This document shows, one piece after another, positions 8,160 through 18,000 of a stretch of DNA of 64,000 nt. How positions within the stretch are numbered: position 1 is the first letter of the stretch; each line of letters begins with the position of its first letter. Both the position numbers and the translations under genes were made by a program. Source of the DNA: Clostridia bacterium. Its GTDB lineage: Bacteria; Bacillota; Clostridia; Oscillospirales; Acutalibacteraceae. Location of the stretch: assembly GCA_017937865.1 (NCBI GenBank), contig JAGBCU010000018.1, positions 1 to 64,000 on the forward strand, written 5' to 3'. Below the pieces are notes generated by a model, which searched no databases, was not told the origin of the DNA, and saw only the letters and a program-made list of their open reading frames with translations.

Positions 8160-8303
8160 GTACAAACAATAGAAATTTCCTTTGGATAAAATTCACAAAC
8201 TTTAAAAAACGGCAAAATATTTTTGAAGTTTTTCGGAATTTTTGTCATATATAGATGAAAGCAAAAAAATTTGTTTTCGATAAAATATATAGGAGGAATT
8301 CTG

Positions 8304-11300
8304 ATGAAGACAATGTTAAAAGTAATATCAATGATGTTAACGGTGCTTCTTGTTTTCGGACTATTTTCCGTAGCAACACCTGTAGTTGCGGCGGATATAC
8401 AGGAAAAAGAAGCAACACAAGAGAATTTGCAAAACATTGTAAGTGAAATTTCAGAAAACAACAATCAAAAATATACTGAAATTGTAAGTGAACGTGACAG
8501 ATTCACAAAAGTTTTTTCGGATGAAACAGGTGCATTAACCGCAGTTGTTTCAACTTCCCCTATTCATTATGAAAAAAACAAAGAATGGGTGGATATTGAT
8601 AACACGTTAGTTTCTTCCAAAGATTCTTTGATAAATAAAAGCAATAGCTTTTCTGTGGCATTGCCTGACGAATTAGGTGTAAGCGAAAGTATTGAATTAA
8701 AAAACAGTGATTATTCTATAAGTTTCACGTTGCAAGGCACGGATTTGTTTGAAAACAACAAAAAGGTTACGGCGCAGAAAAAAGAGAAATCAAACAAAAA
8801 CGAAAGTAAATCTAAAAATAAAATTGATACGGATTTTTTGGATAAAAATGTTGCAGTATCTTATAGTGAAGTCGGCGAAAATACTGATATAGAGTATACG
8901 GTTACTTCAACCGGTATAAAAGAAAATATCGTATTAAACAAAAAGCCGAAAAGCGAAGTCGAATACATTTATGCAATAAAAGCAGATGGGTTAACAGCGG
9001 TTAAAAATGATGACAATTCCATTAGTTTCTTAAATAACGACGGAGAAACTATTTTTTATATACCTGCACCCGTTATGTATGATAATAAAAATCAAATTTC
9101 TACAGATATTTCTGTTACTCTTTCGGGTGAAAACGGCTTATATGAAATGAAATATATTCCGTCATATGAGTGGTTAAAGAAGACTGCAAAATATCCCGTT
9201 ATAATTGACCCGATTATCGAATACAGTCCAACAAATGTATCAATATCAGATACGTTCGCCACAAACGAATATCCTAACGACAACCAAGGTACATACCCGT
9301 ATTTATTAGTAGGAACTGCAGACGGCTATGAATATGTTTCTTATATTACTATGGATTACGATGTTTTGATGGAGCGTTATGGTGTAAATGTTAAAAACGT
9401 TTCGTTAGTTGTTCCTGTCAACACCTCTGTTTCTGAGCCGTCAAGGAATTATGAAATAGGAGCATTTCCAATTATAGATTGGTGGAGCGAAACAACCTTA
9501 ACATATACTAATAAACCCTCACTGGGTAATCAGATTGATGTTAAAACTATATACTCTTGGGATAATAGTCCGACTTTATACTTCGACGTGACTAAGGCAT
9601 ATACACCGGGAAGCAATTACTGTGGAATTGCTTTAAAGCATAGCGACCCCTCTTTAGGAGATGCTATAGCTTATTTAGGTTCAAAAGAAGGAACTGAATA
9701 TTACGAACCGTCTTATTTCATAGTCGAATACTACGAAACAAGAGGTGTTGAAGAGCAATTTGATTATCACACCCAAGATTTAGGTAGAGCCGGTACTGTA
9801 TATATAAATGATTTCAGCAATCTTTTGTTTGTTGAAAGAGAAGATATCGGACTTCCCGGCAACGTAATGCCCGTAACAATAAAAAGCTATCTTCAAAGCA
9901 GTTACGGTGGAACTTATAGCTTCTTACCTGCATATGAAACGCGAGATTACCCTCATTTCGGCGTAGGCTGGTTAACAAACTTCAACCAGTGTCTTGAATA
10001 TTACCCGGATATTGACGGGGAAGAAACAATTATCTATATGAGCGGTGACGGTCAGGCTGTTTATTTTCAGCCTTCGGGTACCGAAACTGACGGAAAAGCC
10101 GTATGGAATGAAAAAGCAGATAAGTTTTCAAGCAGTAAAGGATATACCCTGTATATCCCGACCCAAAACTTGTCAAATATAACGGGAAATTGGGCTTCGG
10201 TTACAGTAAAAGGACCTGACGAAAATACATATGAATTTAATCAGTTTGGCTTTCTTTCCCGTATAGTTTCAGGTGATGAAAGCTTCCCCGGTGCAATAAC
10301 GGTTTCATATATGGATAACCGATGTGTTATGCTTGACAAGATTATAGACGGTGTTGGCAGAGAATTCCGTTTCAGTTATAACAATTATTATTGTCTTGAT
10401 TCTATCAACGTGTATAATGCGGACGGTACACCTGTTACAGTGAACGACAATAACGGTAATACTGTTAATTACAAAATCAGCTACGGTTATACTTTTGTTC
10501 CTATTCAGGAATTTGGTGGAAACAACTATTCTGTATTAAGCTCAATAACTTATCCTGACGGCGAAAAAGTATATTATAACTACGGTGATTATTATTTCTC
10601 AATGCACAACGTTGACGGACGTTCGTTCATTTGCAACAGAACGTCAACAGGAGCATTTGAATATTACGAAACAGCCGTTGATTCTAACGGACAAACCGTA
10701 ATGGGTGCAAAAATGACCGTTGTTAATGACAACGCTTATCAAAAAACCTTTACCGATTCAAATAACGTTACCGTTACAAAGCAGTTTGATTTATACGGCA
10801 GAGTTACCAACACAATAAACTCAGACGGAACCAGTTCTTTGAGAACCTACAGCGAGGAAAATAATGCCTTAGGTCAAATTTCAAACTCATTGTATAATTC
10901 TTACGAATATCCAACTACTCATACTGAAACAAATCTCATAAGCAACAGTAGCTTTAATCAAAATACAAGCGACTGGGTTTTAAGTGATTGGGCAACAATA
11001 GGAAGTGGCTCGGACAGACTTGTTAATAACAGTAACCCGGGTGCTTTGGCTGTGTTTAACGGAAATGATTGGTTTAACTATGCTTCTCAGGTTGTTTCGT
11101 TTGCTAACGGCAAAAGCGGTGATGAATTCCAACTTGATTTTTATTCCTATACGATTAATACAAATTCAAGCTATAATCCAAGTTATGGCTTACTGTATTT
11201 CTCATTTGCTACCGTTGAAGCAAGAAATAATATTAACGGCAATGAAGAATGGAAAACCGTTAAAATTATTGAAATGTGCCCGTATAATATGACATGGCAG

Positions 11301-14255
11301 GGTTATAGCCACCGTTTTGATATTGATTTTGATTACAATGAACTTCAAATAACTCTGGGAAGTTTTTTAGAATACGGAACAGTTATGTTTGACGATGTTG
11401 AGCTTTATAACACATATAAAGTTCCGTTAAGTAGCAACAGCAGTACCGATTCCGAGGGTAGCTCTTCCGATACGGAAACCGACGAAACAGGATGTACCTG
11501 TAACGGTTGTGAGAAGGCTGACTGCCCCTGCAGAGATTGCTCGGACAACTGCACAAGAGTATGCTGTAACCAAAATTACGACTACGGCACGAACTCAAAC
11601 GGTTGGTGGTTCGTAATGAACAACGGCGACGAATACTTAGCAATGTGTCAGGAGGTCTACGGTAATTATTACGGTCATAACTGGGATATTAACGGTCTTT
11701 ATACGTGGAATAACTATAACCAGAGTAACGGTCAGCTCGTTTCTTCAACGAAAGGCAACTCAGTAACAACAAATTATACCTATGATGCAATGAGCCGTTT
11801 GAACGGAGTTAAAAACGTTGTAAGCAACTTGAGTAACGGCAGTGAGATGACTACATCGTATCTTTACGAAAAAGACCGAATCAAAAGCGTAACTCATAAC
11901 GGCTTTTCATATAATTATGAGTATGATGCCTGGGGAAACCCAACTGCAGTTAAAGTAGGCGAGCAACCTCTTGTAAGCTACTCTTATGACTCAGGTCAAA
12001 ACAGAAGCAGAGTTAACCGTATAACCTACGGTAACGGTGATTATACTGATTATTCGTATTCTACAGACGGAAACATTTCTGTTATAAAGAGTTATTCCTC
12101 TGATAACACGTTAAATGCTGAATATCAGTATACTTATAACTCTTCAGGTATACTTTCAAAAATATATGATGTCTTACAGAATACCGAAACTCGATATACC
12201 AACGGTAAAACAGAAATATATATTCTCAACGGTAGCGGTGAAGCCGATGACGAGCTTATATATTCAACCGAAATTAACGATAATGAAGAAACAGTTGAAT
12301 TTTTCGGCGGAAGCGTGTATACTCAAAGTAGAGATATACCATCTGAAAATTTGGAAACAGGCGAAACAACAACTAAATCTGTTTATTCATCACAGTATAA
12401 AACCTTCTCTTCCGAAACAACAACCGATTATTACGGAAGACTAAAATCCCGTTATTCAGAAGATTCATTTGTTCAGGATGATGGCTGGGACGTAAAAATG
12501 TATCAAAATACCGAATACGGATATTTACCGTTATCGGAAGACCAGACCTCAACCCTTGTCAACTCATATAAAACCGAAATAGGTGCAAGGGCAGATATAG
12601 TTGACGAATCTCTTGTGGAAGAAATACCCGAAGAAACCGTTACGGTTATAAAAGAAATTGAATATCTTTACGACTATAATTTGCTTAAAAACATAACGAG
12701 AGTAAGAAAGGTTGAAAACGGCGTTACTTCTACTCTTTACAGCTACGTTTACGATGAAGCGGAGCAAATAGTAAGAGAAAACAATTTCGAGTTAGGTAAA
12801 ACCTACGTTTACGTTTACGATATAGGTGGAAACATTGTTCAGAAAATTGAATATGCTGTTACTGAGGAAACTCTAGGCACGCCTCTTTCAACCACAAATT
12901 ACGGTTATGATAACGTCTGGAAGGATAAGCTTGTATCATATAACGGAACGGCTATCACAAGCGATGCTATGGGTAATCCTTTAAATGCGGTAAGCCTTAA
13001 CGTAATCGGTGGCTTAGAAGAACTTGAGCTTGAATGGAGCGGCAGGCAGTTAAGTGCCGTTACAAGAAATACTCAAAGATATGAATACAGCTACGGTTCA
13101 AACGGTATGCGAACGGAAATTAGAGAATATAAAAACGGTAGCTTAGAAACCGTTTGTCACTATGCTTGGCAAAACGGTAAGCTTGTAGGTCTTGATATCC
13201 GTGACGGCTCAGGTGAGGTTCGCTACGTTGTTAAAATGATTTACGATGATGCAGGTGAATCAACAGGCTACATAATTTTCGACGAAGAAAACTCCAAGCA
13301 AGACGTTATGCATTTCCAGAAGAATTTGCAGGGAGATATAACCGGTGTGTTCTGCGAAAGCTACGGTAGTGAGGTTTTAACCTACAAATACGATGCTTGG
13401 GGGAATATAACTCCTCAGGTTACAGGCGGCGGCTTATCAATGCTTTATTGGGGCGAAATCGCTTTGCTTCTCACGCCAATCACTTACCGAGGATATATGT
13501 ACGACCCTTATATTGGTATGTATTATCTTCAGTCGAGATATTATAACCCGGCTTACGGTAGGTTTTTGAATGTTGACGATACGGACATTCTCGAAGCTTC
13601 CCAAGGTACAACCCACGGTGCAAATCTGTTTGCTTATTGTAATAATAATCCGGTTATGAATGTGGATTGTACAGGAGAGAGTTCTTTGTTATTTGCTTTT
13701 GTTGGCGGATTAAGTACATTTATACCATTTGCTATCGCTTTAATTGGCATACTTATAATTTTGGTTATATATTATTTAAATCCTAACTTATACTCAGATT
13801 TGGTTGGAAATATAGATATTAATACAACTTTGAATAACTATAAAACTTTAGTTGTAGTTAACGCTTTTCAGTTGGTAGATGTTAATTTCCGTTCACTTAT
13901 GAAGGATATTTCTGACAGAATATCCGATTATAAATTCAGAAATGGTAAGCAGAAGCACCATATTGCACCACGCAAAGTATTCTTTTATAAAGGTACTACT
14001 AATGAAATTTATTGTTCAACGTATTTAGAACTGGCCGGAATACATATAGATTCACCTATAAATACAATTTGGCTTAATGCTTCTTTTCATAGTGCATTAA
14101 ATACAAATATGTATTATAGTTATGTTTATAATATAACTAAAACAAGCTATGAAAGTATGAAGAGTGTTGGCGTTTTTTTGTCTTTAGTTTTATTGCAAGC
14201 AACATTAGGTACATTTAACTACATATACGTAATGTTCAACGGAGGTTCAGCATGA
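8304..14255 (+). CDS. secreted DNRLRE/RHS-repeat polymorphic toxin with candidate AHH-type nuclease tip
   Basis: About 1,983 residues. The start is ATG 8304 after AGGAGG (8291-8296) rather than the open TTG at 8271. A signal peptide (about 1-32) precedes a region of unknown role. A DNRLRE-like beta-domain lies at about 305-480, and a long YD/RHS repeat shell at about 500-1720 is interrupted near 1064-1088 by a nine-cysteine insert. The RHS core end (DPYIGMYYLQSRYY, about 1735-1748) is followed from about residue 1790 by a variable tip: a hydrophobic segment (about 1791-1815), then KQKHHIAP (H1885, H1886) and a FHSALNT motif (H1929). The spacing of the HH pair and the distal His resembles the AHH family of HNH/ENDO VII nucleases in bacterial polymorphic toxins. 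The lead residue is Lys rather than Ala. The tip class is an inference; the RHS architecture is clear. The next gene overlaps by 4 bp. Confidence 0.85.
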   Translation: MKTMLKVISMMLTVLLVFGLFSVATPVVAADIQEKEATQENLQNIVSEISENNNQKYTEIVSERDRFTKVFSDETGALTAVVSTSPIHYEKNKEWVDIDNTLVSSKDSLINKSNSFSVALPDELGVSESIELKNSDYSISFTLQGTDLFENNKKVTAQKKEKSNKNESKSKNKIDTDFLDKNVAVSYSEVGENTDIEYTVTSTGIKENIVLNKKPKSEVEYIYAIKADGLTAVKNDDNSISFLNNDGETIFYIPAPVMYDNKNQISTDISVTLSGENGLYEMKYIPSYEWLKKTAKYPVIIDPIIEYSPTNVSISDTFATNEYPNDNQGTYPYLLVGTADGYEYVSYITMDYDVLMERYGVNVKNVSLVVPVNTSVSEPSRNYEIGAFPIIDWWSETTLTYTNKPSLGNQIDVKTIYSWDNSPTLYFDVTKAYTPGSNYCGIALKHSDPSLGDAIAYLGSKEGTEYYEPSYFIVEYYETRGVEEQFDYHTQDLGRAGTVYINDFSNLLFVEREDIGLPGNVMPVTIKSYLQSSYGGTYSFLPAYETRDYPHFGVGWLTNFNQCLEYYPDIDGEETIIYMSGDGQAVYFQPSGTETDGKAVWNEKADKFSSSKGYTLYIPTQNLSNITGNWASVTVKGPDENTYEFNQFGFLSRIVSGDESFPGAITVSYMDNRCVMLDKIIDGVGREFRFSYNNYYCLDSINVYNADGTPVTVNDNNGNTVNYKISYGYTFVPIQEFGGNNYSVLSSITYPDGEKVYYNYGDYYFSMHNVDGRSFICNRTSTGAFEYYETAVDSNGQTVMGAKMTVVNDNAYQKTFTDSNNVTVTKQFDLYGRVTNTINSDGTSSLRTYSEENNALGQISNSLYNSYEYPTTHTETNLISNSSFNQNTSDWVLSDWATIGSGSDRLVNNSNPGALAVFNGNDWFNYASQVVSFANGKSGDEFQLDFYSYTINTNSSYNPSYGLLYFSFATVEARNNINGNEEWKTVKIIEMCPYNMTWQGYSHRFDIDFDYNELQITLGSFLEYGTVMFDDVELYNTYKVPLSSNSSTDSEGSSSDTETDETGCTCNGCEKADCPCRDCSDNCTRVCCNQNYDYGTNSNGWWFVMNNGDEYLAMCQEVYGNYYGHNWDINGLYTWNNYNQSNGQLVSSTKGNSVTTNYTYDAMSRLNGVKNVVSNLSNGSEMTTSYLYEKDRIKSVTHNGFSYNYEYDAWGNPTAVKVGEQPLVSYSYDSGQNRSRVNRITYGNGDYTDYSYSTDGNISVIKSYSSDNTLNAEYQYTYNSSGILSKIYDVLQNTETRYTNGKTEIYILNGSGEADDELIYSTEINDNEETVEFFGGSVYTQSRDIPSENLETGETTTKSVYSSQYKTFSSETTTDYYGRLKSRYSEDSFVQDDGWDVKMYQNTEYGYLPLSEDQTSTLVNSYKTEIGARADIVDESLVEEIPEETVTVIKEIEYLYDYNLLKNITRVRKVENGVTSTLYSYVYDEAEQIVRENNFELGKTYVYVYDIGGNIVQKIEYAVTEETLGTPLSTTNYGYDNVWKDKLVSYNGTAITSDAMGNPLNAVSLNVIGGLEELELEWSGRQLSAVTRNTQRYEYSYGSNGMRTEIREYKNGSLETVCHYAWQNGKLVGLDIRDGSGEVRYVVKMIYDDAGESTGYIIFDEENSKQDVMHFQKNLQGDITGVFCESYGSEVLTYKYDAWGNITPQVTGGGLSMLYWGEIALLLTPITYRGYMYDPYIGMYYLQSRYYNPAYGRFLNVDDTDILEASQGTTHGANLFAYCNNNPVMNVDCTGESSLLFAFVGGLSTFIPFAIALIGILIILVIYYLNPNLYSDLVGNIDINTTLNNYKTLVVVNAFQLVDVNFRSLMKDISDRISDYKFRNGKQKHHIAPRKVFFYKGTTNEIYCSTYLELAGIHIDSPINTIWLNASFHSALNTNMYYSYVYNITKTSYESMKSVGVFLSLVLLQATLGTFNYIYVMFNGGSA

Positions 14256-15433: not shown

Positions 15434-15792
15434 GCACGCCTCTTTCAACAATCAATTACGGTTATGACAACGTCTGGAAGGATAAGCTTGTATCGTATAA
15501 CGGAACGGCTATCACAAGCGATGCTATGGGTAATCCCTTAAATGCGGTAAGCCTAAACGCAATCGGTGGCTTGGAAAATCTTGAGCTTGAATGGAACGGA
15601 AGGCAGTTAAGCGCCGTTACAAGAAATACTCAAAGATATGAATACAGCTACGATTCAAACGGTATGCGAACGGAAATTAGAGAATATAAAAACGGTAGCT
15701 TAGAAACCGTTTGTCACTATGCTTGGCAAAACGGTAAGCTTGTAGGTCTTGATATCCGCGACGGCTCAGGCGAGGTTTGCTATGTGATAAAA
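15434..15792 (+). pseudogene. orphan RHS fragment, duplicate of 12877-13235
   Basis: This 359-bp tract is a near-identical copy of an internal part of the RHS toxin gene (12877-13235). It matches from the codons for TPLSTTNYGYDN to GSGEV(C/R)YV with few substitutions and no indel that I can see. It has no start site of its own, and its frame runs out into the downstream terminator, so it is not a functional gene. Orphan RHS pieces next to toxin-immunity pairs are typical remnants of tip exchange. Homologous recombination between the two copies would delete 2,557 bp, that is, the toxin tip and the candidate immunity gene. Confidence 0.85.
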
Positions 15793-15819
15793 CGAGAGCA
15801 ATTAAAAATTTTTAAATTA

Positions 15820-16864: not shown

Positions 16865-16995
16865 ATGCGAATTGCGGAATGAAGTCACAAGTCGTCGGTC
16901 ACCAGAGCTCGCTACGCTCACAGTTTAATAAGGAGTTAGGAGTGTCGGGGCTTCGCCTGTTATAAGCTTGGCAATGACTAATAAATTAAAAATTT

Positions 16996-17045
16996 GCGAT
17001 AGCCTTACCTCCCTGTGCGAAGCATAGGGAGGGGGACCGTTCTTT
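16996..17045 (+). repeat. left copy of the ~50-bp terminal inverted repeat
   Basis: It begins GCGATAGCCTTACCTCCCT and ends AGGGAGGGGGACCGTTCTTT. It is the reverse complement, with a variable centre, of 17828-17882. Confidence 0.85.
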
Positions 17046-17184
17046 GATGCAACTGTTGTTTACTTTTTATTTATTTCGAGTGATAAAGATGTTTATTCCA
17101 AACATTCTAACGGAACGGTGGTGGGTAGTTCTCTTACTTCTTAGGTTTACTAAACCAGAACATAAACACAGAAAGCAGATATCT

Positions 17185-17580
17185 ATGAAACACAAAGATA
17201 TAACCCACGAAATAGTTGACCAAGCAAACAAATTAAGGAAGCAACAAACTCAAGAAGAAGGTAAGCTTTGGCATTTATATTTGAAGAAAATTAATCCGCG
17301 ATTTACCCGACAAAAAATAATCGGATTATACATTGTGGATTTTTATTGTGCAAAACTGAAACTTATTATCGAAATAGATGGCGAACAGCATTACTTAGAT
17401 GAAAATAAAGAATACGAAAAACGTCGAGAAGAATATTTGCAAGGCTTAGGCTATAAGCTATTAAGATTTTATAACAGTGATATAAATAAAAGTCTTAAAA
17501 ATACTGAAACAACAATTTATCACAGTTGTATAAACAGAGCTGAAGAATTATGTATTGATGTTGAAATAAGCTTTAAATGA
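17185..17580 (+). CDS. DUF559 (Vsr-like, PD-(D/E)XK fold) endonuclease-domain protein
   Basis: A 131-residue protein starting at ATG 17185. The open frame extends back to 17044, but that part runs through the inverted repeat and is unlikely to be translated. It matches the DUF559 pattern: an N-terminal Arg/Lys helix with an EEGKLWHLY-like segment, FTRQKIIGLYIVDFYC, then LIIEIDGEQH with acidic residues E63 and D65 and H69, and a C-terminal GYKLLRFYNSDI strand. The fold is that of very-short-patch-repair-type nucleases. It is the only gene inside a set of nested inverted repeats, so it may help move the element or may be cargo. The ribosome site is weak. Confidence 0.8.
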   Translation: MKHKDITHEIVDQANKLRKQQTQEEGKLWHLYLKKINPRFTRQKIIGLYIVDFYCAKLKLIIEIDGEQHYLDENKEYEKRREEYLQGLGYKLLRFYNSDINKSLKNTETTIYHSCINRAEELCIDVEISFK

Positions 17581-17586
17581 TATGAT

Positions 17587-17630
17587 AAACGGATAGTATA
17601 TTTGATTTAATATACTATCCGTTTTCTTTT
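17587..17630 (+). terminator. hairpin of the GGATAGTATAT family after the DUF559 gene
   Basis: Stem 17587-17602 with 17609-17624 (16 bp), then TTTCTTTTT. The core GGATAGTATATT/AATATACTATCC recurs at 26407-26437 in an otherwise unrelated spacer. A shorter version, AGTATAT...ATATACT, is at 17784-17805. Confidence 0.7.
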
Positions 17631-17827
17631 TACCGTCTTATCGTAATAAATCTAAAAAGTAAGAGAACTACCCACACAATTTGAGGTAATAGGTAGTAGT
17701 GAAAAGTGTTATTTTATCTTAGTAAACTTAAGAGGGAAGTGAACTACCCACCACCGTTCCGATTCAATAAACAAATAACAGACAGTATATCGCACGGAAT
17801 ATACTATTTGTTAAGTTTTAGTTTATT

Positions 17828-17882
17828 AAAGAACGGTCCCCCTCCCTATCCGCCAAAGCGGACAGGGAGGTAAGGCTACCGC
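17828..17882 (-). repeat. right copy of the terminal inverted repeat
   Basis: The inverted partner of 16996-17045. The two differ mainly in the hairpin loop (ATCCGCCAAAGCGGAC here). Confidence 0.85.
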
Positions 17883-17952
17883 TACTTCTCAATTTGTTGC
17901 TCACCGCGAAGCTGCTGGAGACCGGCAACTGATGACTGGAGGCTTTTAAGTT

Positions 17953-17996
17953 GTCGCAGACCCTTAATTTGCCACTTGCCACTTGCCATTTGCCAT
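17953..17996 (+). repeat. GTCGCAGACCC motif plus four TTGCCAY heptamers
   Basis: GTCGCAGACCC at 17953-17963 is followed by TTGCCAC, TTGCCAC, TTGCCAT, TTGCCAT (17969-17996). The same 11-mer also precedes a heptamer array at 61216-61226, where the heptamer is a different one. Confidence 0.85.
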
Positions 17997-18000
17997 TAAA

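Follow-up and report, generated by a model that had tools for sequence, protein, structure and literature searches.

Why would one small nuclease-like gene stand alone inside a set of nested inverted repeats? In the window (the whole 64,000-nt stretch of DNA analysed here), the only gene within these repeats is a plus-strand open reading frame at 17185-17580, whose 131-aa product matches DUF559 in a Pfam scan (PF04480; E = 6e-30; 103.7 bits against a curated cut-off of 20.6). A first-pass annotation of this DNA had described nested inverted repeats around the gene, and three pairs bear the description out: 17024-17048/17825-17849 (96% complementary), 17104-17153/17719-17768 (86%) and 16965-17019/17859-17913 (78%). 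The third inner copy that it listed is also present, as an extra partial copy of the inner block on the minus strand (17644-17675), 91% complementary to 17121-17152 and a direct copy of 17714-17751 at 79%. At this locus (L098) the bracketing alignment score was 81, compared with a maximum of 28 over 146 slid positions of the window; the bracketing of the gene by repeats is beyond chance. The reported absence of a transposase also held among the four neighbourhood proteins scanned with Pfam.

Architecture of the element and its enzyme

Two nested repeats had been described on each side of the gene. The repeats are real, but each side forms one composite unit, and the two units are inverted relative to each other. 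Their order is a pyrimidine/purine hairpin, GGG, a second stem and a G-rich third block that mirrors the purine arm of the hairpin. The left unit, on the plus strand, combines an outer hairpin (17008-17032; pyrimidine arm CCTCCCT.., block Y; purine arm ..AGGGAGG, block R) with an inner block (17113-17131). A long-range stem, ACCGTTC (17036-17042)/GAACGGT (17113-17119), encloses a spacer (17036-17119 overall) and is followed by the unpaired third block GGTGGGTAG (17120-17128; block R2). On the minus strand, the right unit consists of an inner block with the inverted third block and a stem half (17741-17759) and an outer hairpin (17841-17870), the latter lying with the stem half GAACGGT within 17831-17870 and again reading CCTCCCT../..AGGGAGG; an inner hairpin within its long-range stem (17775-17813, minus strand) is common to gene-less copies. 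The second stem occupies the 86-87 nt between the starts of GGGGACC and GGTGG in the window unit. Compared with shuffles, DNA folding gave z = -7.9 for the right unit and z = -3.0 for the left. Directly 3' of the gene, a perfect 16-bp hairpin precedes a T-rich run in a terminator-like arrangement (17587-17624, plus strand). Rfam and tRNA scans of the window gave no match, and the element had no DNA match in plasmids.

The proposed Vsr/PD-(D/E)XK fold of the DUF559 protein is confirmed by its sequence and by a structure model built from 38 sequences (pLDDT 93.8, versus 52 for a one-sequence model). Foldseek with this model places NGO0050 (3hrl; 4e-5), the homing endonuclease I-Bth0305I (3r3p; 5e-4) and Vsr (1vsr; 0.06) as the predicted nearest solved relatives of DUF559. 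Residues T22, E25, D52, E63, D65, H69 and R94 are invariant in 70/70 DUF559 proteins, as would be expected of an active nuclease. The window protein thus resembles Vsr and I-Bth0305I in fold and conserved acidic/His residues, but unlike them it is framed by repeats, and no association with a methyltransferase or an intron was noticed. NGO0050, E. coli YcjD and VsrA belong to the same Pfam family, and similar units flank the Neisseria and E. coli genes. According to the available passages of PMC12907096, an SOS response that Caulobacter mounts in the absence of a methyltransferase requires the DUF559 protein VsrA, and VSP repair is the role that its authors propose. By analogy, this requirement is consistent with DUF559 acting as a DNA-cutting enzyme in vivo. 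Pfam returned additional weak matches of the window protein to MTES_1575 and RAP. PADLOC gave weak matches, the best of them (1e-7) to a model of a methyl-directed restriction enzyme and another, at 0.003, to the homing model, and we therefore set a defence reading aside.

Between the third block and the purine arm we observed a mirror rule, G over G and A or T over A, which reads as the pairing rule of a purine-motif intrastrand triplex. Within the genus, hairpin and third block covary (a score of 130 over 22 distinct pairs, versus 103.7 ± 5.2 when shuffled; 0/5000), and where the two ends of one element differ (L075, L089), each end matches itself. In loci from across the phyla, the third block was found within 45 nt in 84/87, versus a mean of 44 and a maximum of 57 with flanks swapped (the 87 being those with a stem of at least 7, out of 96 loci given). 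DUF559-associated units contain the three blocks Y, R and mirror R2 of BoxC/PIT/TM repeats, in which a mirror G-rich third block likewise comes after a Y-R hairpin and which are multicopy and often form inverted dimers. Judged by these features, the ends flanking DUF559 genes are assignable to the BoxC/PIT/TM class of predicted intrastrand-triplex repeats, with the difference that in the window a second stem of about 80 nt separates hairpin from third block and the unit lacks the short loops of that class (1-6 nt in the published search). Short loops between blocks occur in units of many other phyla. An intrastrand triplex has been demonstrated for the E. coli motif as a single strand (PMC4666352, available passages).

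Repeat units beside DUF559 genes

The window's own 2.15-Mb genome contains 106 matches to the element, nearly all to its two ends and not to the gene, and dozens lie beyond the window locus. DUF559 occurs at five places in this genome, one of them truncated, and by eye we observed units of one plan, with differing letters, at all five. The stem halves change together among these copies (ACCGTTC/GAACGGT, ACCGCC/GGCGGT and ACCGCCC/GGGCGGT, by eye). Across the genus, PF04480 is present in 14/22 genomes, and the bracketing score exceeded the window maximum in 24/30 loci. Among the other six, L076, L078 and L082 each have a complete unit without a gene a short way upstream, L079 and L089 have degenerate enclosing ends, and the ends of L080 belong to a different family with an equal plan. 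The bracketing test was negative for the more distant relative L105, and L106 was left out of it, its contig end being too near. A pyrimidine/purine hairpin was detected in 23/30 genus loci; all seven others, the window's locus among them, were positive in the bracketing test.

Using 14 diverse DUF559 proteins as queries, we took the best 80 of 538 confirmed loci, which include Clostridia, Cyanobacteria, Proteobacteria, Chloroflexi, Patescibacteria and Bacteroidota and are not all independent (L179 and L183, for example, come from one MAG). A pyrimidine/purine hairpin with a perfect stem of at least 6 was present within 400 nt of the gene in 74/78 usable loci from this set, compared with 74/1178 control positions of the same geometry in the same loci (6%), and on both sides in 39/78; the four misses were L191, L200, L219 and L227. 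DUF559 loci on plasmids and phages gave a similar result (14/15, versus 16/105 controls), while weak PF04480 matches, many within large proteins, had the hairpin in 1/27. By a stricter left-right similarity, 32/76 loci from the same best 80 (L199 excluded) were above the 99% control level and 35/76 above the 95% level; in 31 negatives that were inspected, units mostly lay on one side only or overlapped the end of the open reading frame. The third strand of the nearest unit was directed at the gene in 84 cases versus 36 directed away. Units also adjoin E. coli ycjD (L147) and the Neisseria homologue (L229) of the gene of structure 3hrl.

The association of DUF559 with these repeats across phyla is near-universal, and the first-pass annotation's own counter-case, that DUF559 homologues never accompany such repeats, does not apply: they almost always do. 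With nearly every DUF559 gene beside such repeats, the nuclease may be what spreads this long-known repeat, whose source was unexplained. As a separate observation, in L141, L145, L147, L150, L177, L179, L183 and L186 the DUF559 open reading frame extends into the repeat, which in this way encodes C-terminal tails (proline-rich in L145 and L147, for instance).

Copy number, dispersal and site occupancy

Unit similarity tracks DUF559 protein similarity between species (Mantel r = 0.61; 0/2000; 25 loci, 13 species), and in 15/25 loci the unit that matches best goes with a protein ranking among the three most similar. In the 22 genus genomes, which are drafts of 76-98% completeness, unit-motif count correlates with DUF559 number (Spearman 0.77; p = 3e-5), with medians of 31 versus 1 in genomes with and without DUF559 and of 1 in all for a reversed-pattern control. 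Among 143 Gammaproteobacteria genomes, at least three TMs were found in 20/31 with a strong DUF559 match versus 13/112 others. The search pattern covered one TM type only, so misses are expected: some genomes have a strong DUF559 match without the TM type searched (e.g. G240, G291). Units are also kept in genomes without a DUF559 match (e.g. 42 in G224 and 48 in G226). In E. coli (60 records picked at even steps down the ranking), BoxC places had a median of 14 in the 38 ycjD-positive records (range 8-21) versus 2.5 in the 22 negative ones (range 1-11), a comparison confounded by phylogroup. In phylogroups A, B1 and C, ycjD occupies the position of the eef operon, according to the available passages of PMC12817139.

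In G008, one gene-bearing element of ~630 nt lies at three unrelated loci on three contigs, with copies 88-92% identical. The similarity extends from one outer hairpin to the other (GCCTTCCTTCGAAGGAAGG... to ...CCTTCGAAGGAAGGCACA) and no further, with different genes on the outside. By eye, no target duplication was evident at the three copies, and no base-precise empty site was found. When one of these sites was compared in 11 species, DUF559 was present in three (G008, G009, G018) and missing from eight, several of which have just a short plain intergenic stretch; the DUF559 of G009 and G018 belongs to a different clade from that of G008. The possibility that the repeats are fixed at one locus in all relatives is likewise contradicted at the window's own junction, where no unit is present in G009, G014, G019 and G020, and those of G007, G008 and G017 are gene-less (the neighbouring gene is not visible in the loci from G012 and G018). 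Gene-bearing copies are thus dispersed, with presence and absence at orthologous sites.

A search for clean empty sites at three BoxC loci in E. coli, with a fourth region (L241) left out, found none. Where strains lack a unit, the cases inspected are explained by internal deletion or by exchange of the intergenic stretch: one deletion joins two CCCTCTCCC copies, in another case different intergenic DNA has taken the place, and a third has lost 60 nt between short repeats. In the last case (L242; E. coli EC2, tauD-hemB), one short repeat lies in tauD and the other in the BoxC unit; the deletion removes the tauD stop codon, and the flanks are otherwise identical to MG1655. We also observed DUF559 genes of different clades at apparently the same intergenic sites in different species (L079/L099 and L076/L078/L083), and such sharing suggests either that certain sites are hotspots or that one element has replaced another.

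Explanations for the association and known systems

We consider the element probably (about 0.62) an autonomous member of a transposase-less family of mobile repeats, with a DUF559 enzyme and with triplex units as ends. Each end would be an intrastrand-triplex unit made of the Y-R hairpin, an optional second stem and the mirror third strand R2. The DUF559 protein would recognise the folded unit, probably when it is single-stranded during replication, or its duplex form, and would cut at or near it; host repair could then place the element in the break by copying or fusion, in many cases at a second unit. The units without a gene would be non-autonomous copies, and E. coli YcjD may be the present or past enzyme of BoxC. 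A PD-(D/E)XK nuclease is not known to form a covalent intermediate, so movement would need host repair. At somewhat better than even odds, DUF559 and triplex repeats would make up one bacteria-wide, transposase-free mobile class that includes YcjD/BoxC and is analogous to, but independent of, RAYT/REP. The interpretation in the first-pass annotation is partly supported, and its suggestion that the protein could nick the hairpin-rich ends is plausible; it had recognised neither the BoxC/PIT/TM likeness of the ends nor the bacteria-wide pattern.

If homing alone were at work, something else would spread the repeats, and a selfish DUF559 gene would land where its nuclease cuts triplex units, much as homing endonucleases insert at their target. 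This would fit I-Bth0305I being among the closest solved folds, elements often lying within unit arrays and different DUF559 clades using one orthologous intergenic site (G008 versus G009/G018). It is nevertheless unlikely, given that unit copy number tracks DUF559, that unit sequence tracks DUF559 clade between species and that homology of the moved element stops at its outer hairpins. A housekeeping role, in which DUF559 would be retained beside triplex structures to remove or repair them, without mobilising anything, faces the patchy presence of the gene (14/22 genus genomes), its several copies per genome, the dispersal of similar elements in G008 and the fact that units are few, not abundant, in most genomes without DUF559. 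We judge it quite improbable despite the Vsr-like fold, the VsrA requirement for an SOS response (PMC12907096) and the local genome instability reported with triplex repeats (PMC4666352).

Insertion sequences and classical MITEs share the multicopy inverted ends seen here, and the units could be ordinary MITEs of an unrelated transposase with DUF559 as a passenger: gene-less copies look MITE-like, and the transposase need not be local. We give this very little credence, as many phyla have this one gene family with ends that vary yet are alike in structure, the hairpin occurs at just 6% of control positions and, in the available passages of PMC4666352, neither transposase nor integrase is found near E. 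coli units. The same control frequency argues against terminators or regulatory hairpins that flank small genes by chance; the repeats are indeed mostly intergenic and hairpin-forming, but terminators need neither a third block nor covariation, and work cited in the same passages found no promoter or terminator activity, making this account scarcely credible.

The element preferred here, a mobile repeat with a DUF559 enzyme, may be likened in organisation to RAYT/TnpA-REP, in which one small enzyme gene is framed by palindromic repeats (PMC3733652, available passages) and the framing repeats of RAYT/REP/REPIN also occur in many gene-less copies, often as inverted dimers. The two appear unrelated in enzyme and end: the RAYT enzyme is an HUH tyrosine transposase and the present one a PD-(D/E)XK fold nuclease, and the REP tags GTAG or CGTC were not seen in the window element, whose ends are of triplex type. 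RAYT membership was rejected since Pfam finds no HUH domain in the window protein. CGTC REPs (dRS3 etc.) were also rejected as partner repeats, since the 3.3 kb surrounding the Neisseria NGO0050 homologue contained nothing of dRS3 type, and by eye CGTC-tagged palindromes were not seen in other DUF559 flanks.

BoxC/PIT/TM repeats number 23 copies in MG1655 and occur in more than 260 genomes without a known source of mobility, and the authors report that mobility genes were never found near the motif (PMC4666352, available passages). DUF559 (YcjD) is a widespread family whose name still stands for a domain of unknown function. A link between them would explain both and is testable in laboratory E. 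coli, where MG1655 BoxC copy 9 (1,351,204-1,351,239; Table 1 of PMC4666352) adjoins ycjD/fabI; the words "endonuclease", "ycjD" and "DUF" are absent from the available text of that paper. We found no DUF559-repeat link in the literature searched, in which subscription journals and bioRxiv preprints were thinly covered. If the link is true, bacteria would have a second, independent way to make interspersed palindromic repeats, resting on a restriction/homing-type nuclease and a triplex end.

Two further observations concern the surroundings of the element. Short near-repeats (TTGCCACTTGCCATT, CTCCTAACTCC, CATCTGGCATCTGG) form runs at 16931-16942 and 17900-17999 of the window and in L003, L031, L036 and others, and many intergenic regions of the window's genus have such runs together with units, arranged as a mosaic. 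Upstream, a large RHS-repeat/AHH-nuclease protein (8271-14255) precedes a near-copy, itself truncated, of the protein's C-terminal core (15526-15800), an arrangement that resembles RHS tip exchange.
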